DNA of 64,000 bases from Deltaproteobacteria bacterium (GTDB lineage: Bacteria; Desulfobacterota; Desulfobulbia; Desulfobulbales; Desulfocapsaceae), in the NCBI GenBank assembly GCA_026388715.1, contig JAPLJF010000010.1, positions 124,001 through 188,000 on the forward strand. The letters are read 5' to 3'. Position numbers and translations under genes: made by a program. Below are positions 11,287 to 38,483 of the stretch, in pieces (positions within the stretch are counted from its first letter, which is position 1; every line of letters starts with the position of its first letter). The notes under the pieces are model-generated. The model worked only from the letters and a program-made list of their open reading frames with translations. It was not told where the DNA came from and did not search any database.

Positions 11287-12282
11287 ATGGCACTGTTTGA
11301 AAGTTATGACCGGCGGATAGATCAGATCACTCCTGTTCTTGCAAAATATGGGATGAAGAGCCTGGAAGAGGCCAAAGAGGTGTGTGATGGCTACGGCGTG
11401 GACGTGGCGGCGATAGTAAGAAAGATCCAGCCCATCTGTTTTGAAAACGCCTGCTGGGCCTATACCTTGGGGGCGGCCATCGCCATCAAAAAGGGCGAGA
11501 AGCGGGCGGTGGATATTGCGGCGACTTTGGGTGAGGGGTTGCAGGCCTTCTGCATTCCCGGGTCGGTGGCCGATCATCGGCAGGTGGGTATTGGTCATGG
11601 CAATCTCGCCTCCATGCTGCTGCGCGAAGAGACCCGATGCTTTGCCTTTATTGCCGGCCATGAGTCTTTTGCCGCGGCGGAAGGGGCCATTGGGCTCGCC
11701 AGGTCAGCCAACCGGGTCCGCAAGGAGCCGCTGCGGGTGATCCTCAACGGTCTGGGTAAGGACGCAGCCCAGATCATTTCGCGGATCAACGGTTTTACCC
11801 ATGTGGAAACCTCCTATGATTACGCCACCAGTAAACTGACCGTGGTCAAGGAGAAGGCATATTCTCTCGGAGAACGGGCGGCGGTGCGCTGCTATGGGGC
11901 TGACGATGTGCGTGAGGGGGTGGCCATCAACCATCTGGAAGGGGTGGATGTCTCCATTACCGGTAATTCCACCAATCCCACCCGTTTTCAGCATCCGGTG
12001 GCCGGCACCTACAAGAAAGAGTGTGTTCAACAGGGCAAGAAATACTTCTCGGTGGCCTCCGGTGGCGGCACCGGCCGTACCCTCCATCCCGATAATATGG
12101 GGGCTGGCCCTGCCTCATATGGCATGACCGACACCATGGGGCGGATGCATTCGGACGCCCAGTTTGCCGGTTCATCCTCTGTCCCCGCTCATGTGGAGAT
12201 GATGGGGCTTATCGGTATGGGCAACAACCCCATGGTGGGCGCCTCTGTCTCGGTGGCGGTGGCGCTGGAGCAGGCTTCCTGA
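11287..12282 (+). CDS. GGGtGRT family protein
   Basis: 331 residues with the family name motif SGGGTGRTLHPDNMGAG near residue 260 and the conserved tail MGMTD/MGRMHSDAQ/GMGNNPMVGA type segments. A strong Shine-Dalgarno AAGGAGGAGG precedes ATG 11287. The family occurs mainly in anaerobes and is linked to the NifU-like protein encoded immediately upstream; its molecular function is undescribed. Cys and His residues at CFENACWAYTLG are possible ligand positions. Transcription probably stops at the palindrome directly after the stop codon. Confidence 0.85.
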   Translation: MALFESYDRRIDQITPVLAKYGMKSLEEAKEVCDGYGVDVAAIVRKIQPICFENACWAYTLGAAIAIKKGEKRAVDIAATLGEGLQAFCIPGSVADHRQVGIGHGNLASMLLREETRCFAFIAGHESFAAAEGAIGLARSANRVRKEPLRVILNGLGKDAAQIISRINGFTHVETSYDYATSKLTVVKEKAYSLGERAAVRCYGADDVREGVAINHLEGVDVSITGNSTNPTRFQHPVAGTYKKECVQQGKKYFSVASGGGTGRTLHPDNMGAGPASYGMTDTMGRMHSDAQFAGSSSVPAHVEMMGLIGMGNNPMVGASVSVAVALEQAS

Positions 12283-12283
12283 A

Positions 12284-12327
12284 ACAACATGACAGGCGCA
12301 GCAGCACTGCTGCGCCTGTCATGTTGT
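12284..12327. terminator. Perfect 21-bp inverted repeat, probable bidirectional terminator
   Basis: The arms 12284-12304 and 12307-12327 are exact reverse complements (ACAACATGACAGGCGCAGCAG and its complement), beginning two bases after the GGGtGRT stop. There is no uridine tract, so a classical intrinsic terminator is not complete. Its place between convergent transcription units suggests termination or 3'-end protection. Confidence 0.65.
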
Positions 12328-12512: not shown

Positions 12513-12770
12513 TCAGCAGAGGATATTGTCGAGATAGTCCGCCATTTTCTCTTTGGATGTGGCTATATCCAAAGGAACCCATTGCTGATTGATAAATATA
12601 TTGGTTGACCCCTTTAGAGAATAGGCCGCAGCTTCGGGTGAATCTGTGGTATAGATGTGCAGGTCAAGCTGATCCTTGAATGTTTCCTGCATGGCCCTGG
12701 CCACACCTGTGGCCTTCTGACATGTTGCTCAAGCAGGATTGCCGCTGTGGAATAAAATCATCTCTATCAC
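12513..12770 (-). CDS. Thioredoxin-like selenoprotein with UxxC motif (UGA at 12731-12729)
   Basis: If UGA 12731-12729 is read as selenocysteine, an unbroken small thioredoxin-fold protein appears: VIEMILFHSGNPA-Sec-ATC, then helix QKATGVARAMQETF, strand DLHIYTT, and a C-terminal beta-alpha unit SLKGSTNIFINQ...ADYLDNILC. The Sec is residue 11 counted from ATG 12761, and Sec-Ala-Thr-Cys is a redox pair at the usual end of strand 1. GTG 12770 with GGAGG five bases upstream is the better start (85 residues); ATG 12761 gives 82. Fourteen bases after the UGA comes a 6-bp hairpin GGCCAC-AGGU-GUGGCC (12714-12699), an excellent bacterial SECIS. Without recoding, only a 63-residue fragment lacking the active site would be called. 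It is the last gene of the ArsR-led operon. Its substrate is unknown. Confidence 0.85.
12699..12714 (-). promoter_or_regulatory. SECIS-like hairpin of the UxxC selenoprotein
   Basis: A perfect 6-bp stem with apical loop AGGU starts 14 bases after UGA 12731-12729. Bacterial SECIS elements read by SelB lie just after the UGA and carry a GGU-type apical loop; both features are present. Confidence 0.75.
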
Positions 12771-12832
12771 GATCGCCTCCTTCTTTGCTGGTGAATAGGT
12801 TTTTAGAATTTTTTCTGACTCTTGGGCAATTG

Positions 12833-13123
12833 TCATTCGGCTGTTGTCTTTTCCGGACATGGCAATCCCAAGTGGCGGCAGAGGCACGCCTCTACTACAT
12901 CCAGGGCTACATCCGCCCCCTCAACCACAATCTCTTCTTCCACCATCACCGCCGGGGCCACCGGCAGATCCAGCTCAAACCAGGAATCGGTCTGGTATTC
13001 GGCCCGCGGTTTTGCAATGATCTCAATGGCGATATCATATTTTGCGCCCAACCTGGGCATCATTTCCAGGAAATGGCCTCAGGCCTTGCCGTTGGGTTCA
13101 TTCAGAAAAAATCGCACCAACAT
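12833..13123 (-). CDS. Small thioredoxin-like selenoprotein (UGA at 13081-13079)
   Basis: 96 residues once UGA 13081-13079 is read as Sec (residue 15): MLVRFFLNEPNGKA-Sec-GHFLEMM. ATG 13123 follows AGGAGGAG and begins 3 bases after the stop of the upstream selenoprotein gene. Strand 1 (LVRFFLNEP), the Sec-headed helix, and the segment LPVAPAVMVEEEIVVEG with its probable cis-proline give a thioredoxin-like fold. There is no cysteine two residues after the Sec, so it would act as a single selenol. CLCRHLGLPCP near the C-terminus holds three cysteines. The UGA is followed by hairpins at 13075-13061 and 13058-13046; the second has an AGGUU loop. It may correspond to a small thioredoxin-like (seleno)protein named in database families, which I cannot test here. 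Confidence 0.83.
13046..13075 (-). promoter_or_regulatory. SECIS-like structure of the second selenoprotein
   Basis: Three bases after the UGA comes CAUUU-CCUGG-AAAUG (13075-13061), then GCCC-AGGUU-GGGC (13058-13046). The second loop shares the AGGU motif of the two neighbouring elements. Which hairpin SelB would use is not decided by sequence alone. Confidence 0.55.
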
Positions 13124-13126
13124 GAA

Positions 13127-13591
13127 TTACTCCTCCTCTGATTGGATTTTTTGTTCTCGTCTCAGCTTGGCAAGCAGAAATGTAGCGCCACTGTGCGAGA
13201 ATCCAAGATTGTTCGAAAGATCTTCTGCTTTACTGTCGGGGTGCTGTTGGAGAAAGGTCATCACCTCATCTTCCAGTTCTTCAAGCCAATCCTCAAAAAG
13301 GATTAATAGCTCAGGATCAGTAACAGATTGGAGCTGTCTGGAGCGAGCCACTTTATCCACCAGGCTTTGACACATCTTTGTGGGGTCGACACCTTCGCCC
13401 ATGCACTCCGCCAGTCAGAGATGGACGAGGCTGGCCACCTTGTCGGCACCAGCTTCACCAATGAGATTGACAACAAAGTCCAGACGAAGCTCTTCGCTTA
13501 CTTGGGAGAAAAGTCCGCGGAGAACAACTCCCAACCTGGTCAGGGCCTTTTCCGGTTCTATCTGGTTAATTATTTTTTGAATTTCATCCAT
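13127..13591 (-). CDS. Selenoprotein with C-terminal helix-turn-helix-like segment (UGA at 13417-13415)
   Basis: 154 residues when UGA 13417-13415 is read as Sec (residue 59): KVASLVHL-Sec-LAECMGEG, a Sec-x3-Cys pair. ATG 13591 lies 23 bases after the ArsR stop, with GGGGGAG upstream at a slightly long spacing. Reading through the UGA joins a helical N-terminal part (residues 1-58) to a C-terminal part whose segment AEDLSNNLGFSH-SGATFLLAKLRR looks like a winged-helix DNA-binding unit. The hairpin UGGG-CGA-AGGUG-UCG-AC-CCCA (13401-13381) starts 13 bases after the UGA. I do not recognise the family. A selenol/thiol redox switch on a DNA-binding or scaffold protein is possible but inferred. Confidence 0.82.
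13381..13401 (-). promoter_or_regulatory. SECIS-like hairpin of the HTH-like selenoprotein
   Basis: Seven base pairs in two blocks (UGGG/CCCA and CGA/UCG) with a two-base bulge and apical loop AGGUG, starting 13 bases downstream of UGA 13417-13415. Spacing and loop sequence match bacterial SECIS rules and the other elements of this operon. Confidence 0.72.
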
Positions 13592-13614
13592 ACGAACAGG
13601 TACTCCCCCACATG

Positions 13615-13932
13615 TTAAAAGGTTGTTCTTTCACTGAGTAATGCCGTGCCCAGTTCATCCAGTCCTGCCAATATTATAAGAATCCGTTGATCTGTCATCT
13701 CATAGTAAACGAAGGGACCGCTTCGCTCAACCTTCACCAGTAAGGCCCTTTTCAGTTCCTTTAGATGATGGGAAACAAGAGGTTGTGATAAGCCGAGTTC
13801 TTCAACAATCCTGGAGACAGATTTCTTTTCCTTGCTGACACAGAACAGGATGCGCAGCCGATTCTCATCAGCCAGGCATTTGGCAAGGAAGGCAAGACTG
13901 TGGGTGTTCAGGTTATCTGCGCGGTTATCCAT
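13615..13932 (-). CDS. ArsR/SmtB-family transcriptional regulator
   Basis: 105 residues from ATG 13932: LADENRLRILFC, then the winged helix-turn-helix SVSRIVEELGLSQPLVSHHLKEL and the wing LLVKVERSGPFVYYEMTD. These are the standard ArsR dimer features. The classical ELCVCDL metal site is not present; cysteines are at LAKCLAD and ILFCVSK, so the sensing chemistry may differ. An upstream in-frame start at 14025 would overlap the preceding gene and has no ribosome site. The gene lies 25 bases after the RHH-like gene and directly precedes the three selenoprotein genes, so it probably autoregulates the operon. Confidence 0.88.
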   Translation of the reverse strand: MDNRADNLNTHSLAFLAKCLADENRLRILFCVSKEKKSVSRIVEELGLSQPLVSHHLKELKRALLVKVERSGPFVYYEMTDQRILIILAGLDELGTALLSERTTF

Positions 13933-13957
13933 GTCATGGTAAAACAGAGAGAAAGAC

Positions 13958-14242
13958 TCAGTATGGAAATTTGCCAAAAATTTCTTCGATGGTCTTGTCA
14001 TGAACCCCGTGTGCTGCGAGCACATCTTTAGCGTGGGTCAGAAATTGCTGTCGTTTCAGTTGGGCGCTGCTGTTTATCAATCCTTGTTGGGCATAACAAA
14101 GGATAAGGGAATGAAGATCGGTCTTTGCCAAGGCTGCCGCTTCTTTTAATTGTCCCAAGAGATCGACAGGGATTTCTAATGTTAACGGAGCGTGATCCTT
14201 ATTGTCTGAAGTCATTTGACATTGGCATGTATTTTCTTTCAT
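13958..14242 (-). CDS. Small ribbon-helix-helix-like protein, first gene of selenoprotein operon
   Basis: 94 residues from ATG 14242, chosen because AAGGAGGT lies six bases upstream. The N-terminus KENTCQCQM is Cys-rich and could bind metal. LTLEIPVDLLGQLKEAAALAKTDLHSLILCYAQQGL has the strand-helix-helix pattern of CopG/Arc-type proteins, followed by a helical tail. I do not recognise a named family. As the leader gene ahead of arsR it may be a second regulator or a small metal-binding protein. Confidence 0.65.
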   Translation of the reverse strand: MKENTCQCQMTSDNKDHAPLTLEIPVDLLGQLKEAAALAKTDLHSLILCYAQQGLINSSAQLKRQQFLTHAKDVLAAHGVHDKTIEEIFGKFPY

Positions 14243-14306
14243 AATTAGACCTCCTTGTAGATTGACGGTGTAATGGGTCTCCACCATTGAGACACCTATT
14301 CTTTAG

Positions 14307-14346
14307 CATATGATTATATGTATAGACGTTTATGTGTTGATGTCAA
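14307..14346 (-). promoter_or_regulatory. Predicted promoter and operator of the selenoprotein operon
   Basis: On the minus strand, -35 TTGACA (14346-14341) and -10 TATACA (14324-14319) are separated by 16 bases. A 14-base palindrome CATAT-AATC-ATATG (14320-14307) overlaps the -10 edge and the expected start site. This is where an ArsR-type repressor would block transcription. The leader to ATG 14242 is about 65 bases. Confidence 0.6.
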
Positions 14347-14601: not shown

Positions 14602-15516
14602 TCAGGTGGAGGACTGTTTTTCCTGACAGATGTCTGCCAGGGTCTTTTGATCGAAAAGGTATTGTTTGTTACAGAAATGGCAGGTTACCTGCACCGGGAA
14701 GGGGCCATTGGCATGCATTTCTTCGAGGTCGGCCAAGGGCAGGTGGAGCAGGAGGAGACGCATGCGCTTGGCATCGCAGCGACAATGAAACTGGACAGGA
14801 TGTTCTTCCAGGATGTCAGGTGGAAAGGCAGAAAATTGCTCGTTGAGCCATGATTCCATCTTCCGGCCTTCCGCAAGCGCCTTGCCCAGAGATGGCAAGG
14901 TTTGCGTCTTCTGGTCAAGGATTGCAAATATCTTGGCGCTGGCCCCTGGCATGGCCTGTAATAAGAGGCCGCCAGCCCCGATTACCCTGTCATGGATATC
15001 AAAAACAAGACTGAGATGAATTGCAGTCGGGATCTGTTCAGAGAGGAGATAATAGTGGGCCACCTCGGAGGCAATATTTCCAGCTTGCAAAGCCACACTG
15101 CCGCTGAAAGGTTGTCTGCCTTCTTCCAGATAGCGGGTAATGGTGAGAAAACCGTCTCCCCAGAAGGGGCTGAGGTCGTCTCTTTCGTCAAAGGGTTGCA
15201 GAGGGTCTGTCCGGGGAATGGGAACCTGCTTGAGGTAGCCACGGATCTCACCAGTGGCAGTGGCCTCGGCGACAAGGCCCTTGATCGGTCCCGAGCAGTC
15301 TATTCTCAAGCCTATCTCGTCGTGACCTTTCAGCGATGAGGCCATGAGTGCGGTCACTTGCAAGGCCTGACCAAGAATCAGCGTTTCCAAGGGGCCAAGC
15401 CCATGACGGGTCCGCATCTCCTGGACCAAGGTGGTGCCATCAAGGATCACTCCCCGCACCGACTTCTCAGCCAGAAGAAAGGTAAGGATATGGCTGGTCT
15501 CAGTGGTTACTTCCAT
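14602..15516 (-). CDS. hslO: Redox-regulated chaperone Hsp33
   Basis: 304 residues with the Hsp33 layout: an N-terminal substrate-binding domain (GLGPLETLILGQALQVTALM, GNIASEVAHYY) and a C-terminal redox switch with four zinc cysteines, HCRCDAKR near residue 247 and VTCHFCNKQYLF near residue 282. On oxidation the cysteines form disulfides and the chaperone is activated. It is cytoplasmic and single-copy here. The upstream neighbour on the same strand is a universal stress protein. Confidence 0.95.
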   Translation of the reverse strand: MEVTTETSHILTFLLAEKSVRGVILDGTTLVQEMRTRHGLGPLETLILGQALQVTALMASSLKGHDEIGLRIDCSGPIKGLVAEATATGEIRGYLKQVPIPRTDPLQPFDERDDLSPFWGDGFLTITRYLEEGRQPFSGSVALQAGNIASEVAHYYLLSEQIPTAIHLSLVFDIHDRVIGAGGLLLQAMPGASAKIFAILDQKTQTLPSLGKALAEGRKMESWLNEQFSAFPPDILEEHPVQFHCRCDAKRMRLLLLHLPLADLEEMHANGPFPVQVTCHFCNKQYLFDQKTLADICQEKQSST

Positions 15517-15597: not shown

Positions 15598-16083
15598 TTA
15601 TTTTGCAAGACAACAGGTGTAGGGATTAACGGTCATGATCGGACAGGGGGCGGCCTTGACCACCTTGTCGGCGATACTGCCGAACATGATTTTTTCCAGA
15701 CCTTTATAACCGTGGGTCCCCATGACGATCAGATTGCCTTGCCCGTTTATGGCATAGTCAATGATCTGCTCCGCGACATCACCCATCAGAACTTTGGAGT
15801 TCAGGGCAGTTACTCCCAGGGCCTTGAATGATTCTTCGTTGTCCTGACAAAATTTATCCATCCTTTCTTCGGCACTGGTAAATAACTCCTGCATCAGATC
15901 AGGGGCATTGATCTGGGGCACAAAAAATCCAGAGTAATCTGCAAAACTCTGGACGACAAAGATCAGACTCAGAGAGGCCTTGAAGCTTCCGGCTACATAA
16001 GCTGCTGATTCGGCTATCAATGGGGCATTTTCAGAGAAATCAATGGGCGTAATCACTCGCTTAATATCATTAATTCTTGTCAT
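15598..16083 (-). CDS. Universal stress protein (UspA family)
   Basis: 161 residues of the USP alpha/beta fold: start RVITPIDFSENAPLIAESAAYVA and ATP-binding loop GTHGYKGLEKIMFGSIADKVV, fitting G-x2-G-x9-G-S. The C-terminus PYTCCLAK carries a vicinal cysteine pair not typical of the family. The ATG is preceded by AAAGGAGAG. The role, beyond stress-linked nucleotide binding, is not specified by sequence. Confidence 0.9.
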   Translation of the reverse strand: MTRINDIKRVITPIDFSENAPLIAESAAYVAGSFKASLSLIFVVQSFADYSGFFVPQINAPDLMQELFTSAEERMDKFCQDNEESFKALGVTALNSKVLMGDVAEQIIDYAINGQGNLIVMGTHGYKGLEKIMFGSIADKVVKAAPCPIMTVNPYTCCLAK

Positions 16084-37430: not shown

Positions 37431-38483
37431 ATGATAAAACTGACAACTACAGTTAAAGCTGCTGGTTGAGCGGCTAAACTGGGCCCAGGGGACCTGGGTC
37501 AGATACTTTGCGGGATTACCCTGCCTAGAGATCCGAATCTTATTGTGGGAGCTGAAACCGGCGATGATGCCGGAGTTTATCGTCTCAACGATGAGACAGC
37601 CTTGATTCAGACCCTGGATTTCTTCACCCCCATTGTTGACGATCCGTTCAGCTTTGGCCAGATCGCCGCGGCCAACGCCTTGAGCGACGTGTATGCCATG
37701 GGCGGCAGGCCACTCCTGGCCATGAATATCCTGGCCTGTCCGGTGAAGACCATGGATATCTCGGTGTTCCGGGAAGTGATCCGCGGGGGCTTAGACAAGG
37801 TGCAGGAGGCAGGTGCCCTGCTGGTGGGAGGGCATTCCATTGAGGATACTGAATTGAAGTATGGTCTTTCGGTCACGGGCGTCGTCCACCCTGATCAGGT
37901 CCTGCTCAATGCCGGGGCCCGTCTGGGAGACCGGTTGATTCTGACCAAACCGCTGGGGATTGGGATTCTGTCAACGGCCATTAAGGGCAATCTGGCCGGG
38001 CCAGAGGTGGAGGCCCGGATTGTGGAGGTGATGGCGACCTTGAATCGGCTGGCTGCCGAGGTCATGCAGGAGCTGCGGGGCCGTGGCGAGAAGGTGCATG
38101 CCTGTACCGATATTACCGGGTTTGGTCTGCTGGGACATCTCTCGGAGATGCTGCTGGCCTCAGGGGTGGCCGCCAGGATCTTTGGCGAACAGGTTCCGGT
38201 GCTTGCCGGGGTCAGGGAGTTTGTTGACATGGGCATTATTCCCGAAGGCGCGCATGTGAACAGGAAACATTATGCCGGGATGCTTATGGGCAGGCGGCCC
38301 GATCAGGATTCCCTGGAGATGATTCTGGCCGATCCGCAGACCTCAGGCGGCCTGCTGATTGCGGCCAGCCCAGGCGCTGCCGCTGCTATCTTGCAGGAGC
38401 TGCGGGCGCAGGGATATCCCCTGGCCTGTGCCGAGATCGGCGAGATTGTCGCCGGTACTCCAGGGCAGATAGAGCTTGTGTGA
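37431..38483 (+). CDS. selD: Selenide, water dikinase, itself a selenoprotein (UGA at 37467-37469)
   Basis: 350 residues when UGA 37467-37469 is read as Sec13: TTTVKAAG-Sec-AAKLGPGDL, where the catalytic Sec/Cys and Lys16 of SelD are expected. ATG 37431 follows AAAAGGAGGTGAAGGAAA. The remainder carries TGDDAGVY, TLDFFTPIVDDPFSFGQIAAANALSDVYAMGG-type metal/ATP segments and the C-terminal ADPQTSGGLL. An 8-bp hairpin (37482-37500) lies 12 bases after the UGA. Callers would start it at 37545 and lose the active site. It makes selenophosphate for Sec synthesis, which supports the UGA readings at 12.5-13.6 kb. Confidence 0.95.
37482..37500 (+). promoter_or_regulatory. SECIS-like hairpin of selD
   Basis: GGCCCAGG and CCTGGGTC pair round the loop GGA, 12 bases after the UGA at 37467-37469. 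Position and guanosine-rich loop fit a bacterial SECIS. Confidence 0.65.

Follow-up and report, generated by a model that had tools for sequence, protein, structure and literature searches.

A Tso-type operon of three selenoprotein genes in a Desulfobulbaceae-like bacterium and its possible role in sulfur or selenium chemistry

The name Tso, for 'three selenoprotein operon', is credited to Haft and Tolstoy (2025) in a review that lists TsoA, TsoB, TsoC, TsoX and TsoY and gives the function of these families as unknown (PMC13188914); no other relevant paper was among the matches listed in literature searches on the system. NCBIfam models exist for TsoA (NF045695), TsoB (NF045694), TsoC (NF045708), TsoX (NF045809) and TsoY (NF047643) and for a regulator, TsoR (NF045707). 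Sao (selenocysteine-assisted organometal), also treated in that review, is likewise a multi-selenoprotein operon with one thioredoxin-like product. Here we compare with these systems a locus in a 64,000-nucleotide stretch of a Deltaproteobacteria genome (assembly GCA_026388715.1, contig JAPLJF010000010.1, positions 124,001 to 188,000; the window hereafter), on whose minus strand an RHH-like gene, a gene for an ArsR-type regulator and three UGA-interrupted genes form a five-gene operon running from 14242 to 12513. The first-pass annotation of this DNA had proposed a row of three selenoprotein genes preceded by an ArsR gene, and the coordinates, the conservation of the UGAs and the hairpins described below all agree with it.

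Judged from its sequence, the locus is a member of the already named Tso system rather than a new kind of operon or a Sao locus. TsoR, TsoA, TsoC and TsoX all score far above their curated cut-offs, with selenocysteine (Sec) at the named motifs. The ArsR/SmtB-type regulator TsoR (13615–13932, minus strand like all operon features; its start is uncertain, the frame being open to 14025) matches its model with 160 bits (cut-off 115). The corresponding values are 228 bits (cut-off 170) for TsoA, a LULAXC-motif selenoprotein of 154 amino acids (13127–13591), 140.5 bits (45) for TsoC, a thioredoxin-fold selenoprotein of 96 amino acids with a NEPxGxxU motif (12833–13123), and 135.7 bits (52) for TsoX, a thioredoxin-like selenoprotein with HSGNPxU and UxxC motifs and 85 amino acids from its GTG start (12513–12770). 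The window shares with the Tso system the R-A pair at the operon head, TsoR lying 23 nt upstream of TsoA, and differs in having TsoX as the third Sec gene and an unnamed RHH-like gene in front. In the genome itself (94% complete), the best match to TsoB reached 38 bits against a cut-off of 805, and TsoY gave no match. A DsbD-like stretch with a UGA (L111, 38 bits) was considered as TsoB and rejected, the UGA lying, by eye, in a stretch read past a stop. Among the five operon proteins only TsoX touches a Sao family, with 17 bits where SaoT requires 65, which rules out the Sao membership that had been raised as an option. Nor are the families new, as had been left possible: TsoA, TsoC, TsoX and TsoR are in NCBIfam, and the three Sec families appear in the review (PMC13188914). 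The assignment as a selenoprotein operon is thus well supported, its gene content being a variant. Beyond outlining the SECIS (selenocysteine insertion sequence) hairpins and the likely operator of a compact operon with strict Sec use, this study adds to the Tso system an A-C-X form without TsoB or TsoY, a near-fixed R-A pair, a palindromic promoter element, a TsoX-linked RHH-like protein and flavoprotein-rich neighbours.

The three UGA codons, at 13415–13417 (Sec59 of TsoA), 13079–13081 (Sec15 of TsoC) and 12729–12731 (TsoX), are most probably selenocysteine codons, since UGA is conserved in relatives, the hairpins that follow covary, and selA, selB, selC and selD are present. Counting distinct sequences, with the window copy included and matches below 100 bits omitted, UGA occupies the Sec position in 94 of 95 tsoA, 78 of 79 tsoC (69 by motif, nine by eye) and all 19 tsoX sequences. 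The sole tsoA exception carries CGA (L054) and the sole tsoC exception encodes a natural Cys (L089); this was the one Cys form among 79 TsoC, and none was seen for TsoA or TsoX. Across 395 genomes of the phylum, TsoX matches over the cut-off contained one UGA in 20 of 21 cases, and the remaining, UGA-free match has Leu at the Sec place. The NCBIfam search of the recoded proteins that the first-pass annotation had proposed yielded matches to TsoA, TsoC and TsoX that each run across the UGA. Homologues ending at the UGA and a lack of sel genes had been named there as observations that would speak against recoding; both were looked for, and neither was found. The genome carries selA, selB and a tRNA-Sec (selC, UCA anticodon), and the window contains selD (37431–38474, plus strand; TIGR00476, 383 bits, cut-off 125), which, as stated in that annotation, has a UGA of its own (37467–37469). 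A second match to the tRNA-Sec family above the gathering score was observed at L126 (G000:C4:19021-19119, 58.5 bits), where ARAGORN calls no tRNA.

Each UGA is followed by a putative SECIS hairpin with an AGGU-type loop (positions are numbered from the U of the UGA). The tsoA hairpin (13383–13400, GGGCGA-AGGUG-UCG-a-CCC) keeps its six pairs in 61 of 61 segments, the tsoC hairpin (13046–13058, GCCC-AGGUU-GGGC) its four pairs in 73–74 of 75, and the tsoX hairpin (12699–12714, GGCCAC-AGGU-GUGGCC) its six pairs in 18–19 of 19. The loop starts at position 24 in tsoA (AGGU in 60/61) and in tsoX (AGG in 15/19), and at position 28 in tsoC (AGG in 64/75). In its apical AGGU-type loop at 24 or 28 the element resembles the Escherichia coli fdhF SECIS; it differs in its stems and in the absence of AGG from 4 of 19 tsoX and 11 of 75 tsoC segments. 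Compensatory changes are found in all three hairpins: among 19 segments tsoX pair 21–30 occurs 11 times as C-G and 8 times as U-A, tsoC pair 24–36 takes five standard forms and is paired in 73 of 75, and at tsoA pair 20–33 a Gly-to-Asp change at codon 6 is accompanied by GAC-to-GAT at codon 10 in 11/11 cases, versus 1/50 otherwise. The p-values for such covariation are too small since the sequences are related; the pattern itself holds. In addition, codons after the tsoA UGA are frozen (61 distinct segments: GAA in 61/61, GGT in 60/61 and GTC for 60 of 60 Val), and GGT makes up only 18% of Gly codons in the tsoA loci.

When the pairing partners were slid by one base the pairs were partly broken, most clearly in tsoX; slid pairs still form in most rows at 2 of 4 positions in tsoA and at 2 of 4 (+1) or 2 of 3 (−1) in tsoC, because these stems are runs of C and G. 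Folding energies of the 45–46 nt after each UGA were unexceptional, with z-scores of +1.24, −0.89 and −1.15 for the three window segments against dinucleotide shuffles, which weighs against recoding, and mean z-scores of −0.08 (tsoA), −0.97 (tsoC) and −1.09 (tsoX) against synonymous shuffles. As a demonstration of the SECIS elements folding energy is therefore unconvincing; it is the covariation that convinces.

The five genes are separated, in operon order, by 25, 23, 3 and 62 nt. By eye, a Shine-Dalgarno sequence precedes the RHH-like gene and the three Sec genes, and none is clear at the TsoR start used here. For tsoX the likeliest start is GTG at 12770, which has AAGGAGG upstream and agrees with the start of the family profile; an alternative ATG at 12836 is also open and overlaps the stop of tsoC.

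TsoA is predicted to be a selenol/dithiol protein built of helices, with a helix-turn-helix (HTH) in its C-terminal part. U59, C63 and C74 are invariant in 89 sequences (U written as C), the window protein reading U59-LAE-C63. The structural model, of moderate quality (predicted local distance difference test, pLDDT, 78; predicted template modelling score, pTM, 0.43), is all-helical. A structure search returned no PDB match at E ≤ 0.001; for the C-terminal part of the model it showed a weak similarity to HTH domains that bind DNA (E about 1). When the TsoA profile was compared with PDB sequences, the best of four matches was a repeat protein (7.6e-4), and we read all four as chance. The protein is acidic, with an isoelectric point of 4.57. 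A second TsoA-like subfamily was observed at six loci (L191–L196, in genomes G007, G083, G106, G088, G010 and G020) with 73–93 bits, below the NCBIfam cut-off; each protein has one UGA in a UIKEC-like motif, another ArsR gene lies nearby in 4 of the 6 loci, and the copy in L191 lies upstream of an MbdU-like gene.

The TsoC model has a thioredoxin fold (pLDDT 93.9) with Sec in a GxxU motif. Structure searches with it matched thioredoxins best, from E about 0.009 upwards with none at E ≤ 0.001, and the TsoC profile found nothing useful among PDB sequences (best 0.054). For TsoX, the profile matches a solved thioredoxin at E 7.5e-4, and in our reading of the profile alignment its Sec aligns with the attacking Cys32 of E. 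coli-type thioredoxins; TsoX is thus predicted to be a thioredoxin-like protein whose UxxC motif carries Sec in the attacking place.

To place the operon among its relatives, loci were collected by homology (29 same-order stretches plus the window copy, and 80 named contigs; 95 distinct tsoA sequences), profiles were built from them, and all six frames were read with UGA open. Partners were counted within 6 kb after tsoA under score limits. TsoB was found in 40, TsoC in 56, TsoX in 15 and TsoY in 5 of the 80 named loci; restricting the count to the 62 loci with 3.5 kb or more of downstream sequence gave 35, 50, 14 and 5, with six loci having none of the four. At 300 bits, TsoB was missing from 27 of these 62, a lack that the window shares. 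TsoY exceeded its cut-off in 3 of 60 genomes of the family, one of them of the same genus. Within the order, 43 of the 116 genomes encode TsoA; cultured relatives with tsoA include Desulfoprunum benzoelyticum DSM 28570 and Desulforhopalus sp. IMCC35007.

TsoR and TsoA form a nearly fixed pair, and the other parts vary. Of the 92 distinct loci long enough to show it, 89 have TsoR directly upstream of TsoA (104/107 with duplicates); L100 lacks TsoR, and L038 and L039 failed the distance rule, either with TsoR slightly further away or with the TsoA match split. The orders seen include R-A-B-C(-C) and R-A-C-SQR-like-NapH-like-X. Among the closest relatives two loci read RHH-R-A-C-X-Y (L031, L032) and one R-A-C-X-Y (L042); the window has RHH-R-A-C-X only, and L033 is identical in content. 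In the same-genus genome G033 the flanking genes are kept and another gene, which we take to be HDOD/EAL-like (L177:5440-6636), occupies the place of RHH-tsoR-tsoA; tsoC and tsoX remain, indicating that this pair can stand alone. TsoX tends to occur where TsoB is lacking (10 of 14 loci with TsoX versus 17 of 48 without it, p = 0.03 among related sequences), an avoidance that is suggestive only. The contrast between a fixed R-A pair and variable parts narrows the question of function to the inducer, a TsoA-TsoR contact and the flavoprotein that reduces TsoX and TsoC.

A common feature of the DNA ahead of the first gene is a dyad around CATATAAA-N6-TTTATATG, close to a TTGACA hexamer. An exact ATAAA-N6-TTTAT occurs in 35 of 89 distinct upstream regions, compared with 2–3 for the best dyad of each of 10 mononucleotide shuffles. 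The promoter/operator region of the window (14307–14346, minus strand), placed by a TTGACA-anchored alignment, has a −35 element TTGACA at 14346–14341 and, by eye, a −10-like TATACA at 14324–14319 overlapping a diverged CATATAA...TTATATG dyad with arms at about 14336–14330 and 14313–14307; a consensus promoter scan pairs differently, joining TCAACA at 14340 with a TATAAT ending at 14313. The window dyad is imperfect in a form common to its closest kin, and is missed at three mismatches to the consensus. We infer that TsoR binds this palindromic candidate operator and represses its own operon. A wider TsoR regulon in the genome was sought and discarded, with 10 sites at three mismatches versus 12 for a reversed-pattern control; since no sites exceed chance, control looks local.

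A test of Cys ligands in an alignment of 105 TsoR sequences, with N-terminal extensions lying outside it, found no Cys column with more than 60% conservation, and the proposal of a metal- or thiol-sensing repressor finds no backing there. Among ArsR models with a named signal the best match is BigR, a sulfur-sensing type, with a weak 39.6 bits (cut-off 155), nearly equalled by the Cd/Pb sensor CmtR at 37.4 bits; TsoR shares the ArsR family with BigR-type regulators and differs from them in having no conserved cysteines.

The RHH-like protein at the head of the operon (94 amino acids, 13958–14242) is defined by its open reading frame, by an alignment of 14 sequences and by its co-occurrence with TsoX; no family in NCBIfam or Pfam matched it, even with E allowed up to 1. 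TsoX is present in 8 of 9 loci that have the RHH-like gene versus 8 of 54 that do not, a count that omits the window, L001, L005, L006, L007 and L012 (copies) as well as short stretches without TsoX, and into which the short stretches L004, L009 and L010 entered only because TsoX was found there. In L187 the RHH-like gene stands beside TsoX without TsoR or TsoA.

Taking these data together, we favour, with a probability of about one half, a reading of the locus as a TsoB-less Tso member of a Desulfobulbaceae-like bacterium encoding a flavoprotein-fed selenol relay that acts on sulfane sulfur or a selenium analogue. TsoR would repress its own operon. Electrons from NAD(P)H or quinol would reach TsoX and TsoC by way of a flavoprotein disulfide reductase, and these would hand them on to a reactive sulfur-like substrate carried by TsoA or by a membrane module acting as partner. 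That module would vary by genome: the rhodanese-DsbD protein TsoB, SQR-like plus NapH-like proteins, or the SLAC1-like TsoY. Since the window locus encodes no membrane module, A-C-X may serve a cytoplasmic step or borrow a module from elsewhere. The most likely substrate class, judging from the neighbours (the rhodanese and DsbD domains of TsoB, TrxB-type genes, SQR-like genes and TusC-like genes), is sulfane sulfur or the corresponding selenium species, on which the system would act reductively. TrxB-type genes cluster in nine loci, seven upstream and two downstream of tsoA, and the single one scanned exceeds the TRX_reduct cut-off; other loci have SQR-like and NapH-like genes after tsoA; and a TusC/DsrF-like gene lies near tsoA in L073 (38.7 bits, cut-off 94). 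Among 150 sampled same-strand genes near tsoA there were 15 of Pyr_redox_2, 12 of VTT, 8 of FA_hydroxylase, 6 methyltransferases, 4 of DnaJ and 3 of DsrE, compared with at most three per family among 150 genes more than 5.5 kb away, where Pyr_redox_2, VTT, FA_hydroxylase and DsrE were absent among the 25 families listed.

Several observations weigh against a sulfur or selenium relay. The two samples of the census were drawn differently (near, 150 of 172 genes on one strand; far, 150 of 277 on both strands), DsrE/TusC-like genes occur in only two (L073 and L109) of the eight loci printed, and the window operon contains no sulfur-linked partner. The 105 aligned TsoR sequences offer no conserved Cys for persulfide sensing. 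ArsM-like genes lie 320–358 nt after tsoA in L051, L056 and L070 (only that of L056 was scanned), and another lies upstream of tsoA in L101. The MbdU-like gene beside the TsoA paralogue in L191 scores 400 bits over part of its model (cut-off 600).

These ArsM-like and MbdU-like genes point towards metalloid or organometal handling: the selenols would bind arsenic, mercury or a methylated metalloid, or reduce it, and TsoR would be its sensor. The ArsR family of the regulator and the TsoA-like subfamily, with ArsR genes nearby in four of its six loci and the MbdU-like gene downstream in L191, fit such a role. We nevertheless consider it rather unlikely, given that TsoR has no conserved Cys, that flavoproteins, VTT proteins and TsoB, and not metal exporters, are the partners encountered most often, and that the SaoT score is far below its cut-off. 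The dedicated redox pathway proposed in the first-pass annotation thus remains plausible from the thioredoxin folds and flavoprotein neighbours, and the metal or organometal substrate proposed with it becomes one of several readings.

The constancy of the R-A pair raises a different and more doubtful idea, that TsoA is the sensor of TsoR, a selenol/dithiol HTH protein that reports the redox or sulfur state, with C, X, B, Y and others as exchangeable effectors. Its Sec-Cys-Cys centre would sense sulfur, selenium or metalloid species and control TsoR or the operator through the HTH. TsoR without conserved Cys next to a TsoA with three invariant Sec/Cys positions, the weak resemblance of the TsoA C-terminus to DNA-binding domains and the TsoA-like paralogues near ArsR genes are all consistent with this. 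However, direct DNA binding is doubtful for so acidic a protein, the model of the whole chain is uncertain, the adjacency might reflect no more than regulation of TsoA by TsoR, and TsoC and TsoX persist without the pair in G033. No selenoprotein is known to act as a transcriptional sensor in prokaryotes, and a sensory TsoA, if true, would be a new role for selenocysteine.

General defence against peroxide or disulfide stress by Sec thioredoxins seems to us improbable to a similar degree. Thioredoxin folds, TrxB and other disulfide reductases nearby and an Hsp33-like gene upstream in both the window and G033 speak for it; yet no peroxidase is among the 25 families listed in the near census, and the distribution of TsoA within the order is patchy. 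Finally, that the UGAs are ordinary stops or frame damage would suit the unexceptional folding energies and is otherwise dismissed as extremely improbable by the near-complete conservation of UGA in all three families, the covarying hairpins and the sel genes.

The operon is flanked upstream, on the same strand, by two genes, which we take to encode an Hsp33-like protein (14602–15516) and a universal-stress-protein-like product (15598–16083), and the order of both is identical in G033. Downstream, between the end of tsoX and a convergent gene (11287–12282), we noted by eye a long, almost perfect inverted repeat (12286–12325), which is perhaps a two-way terminator.

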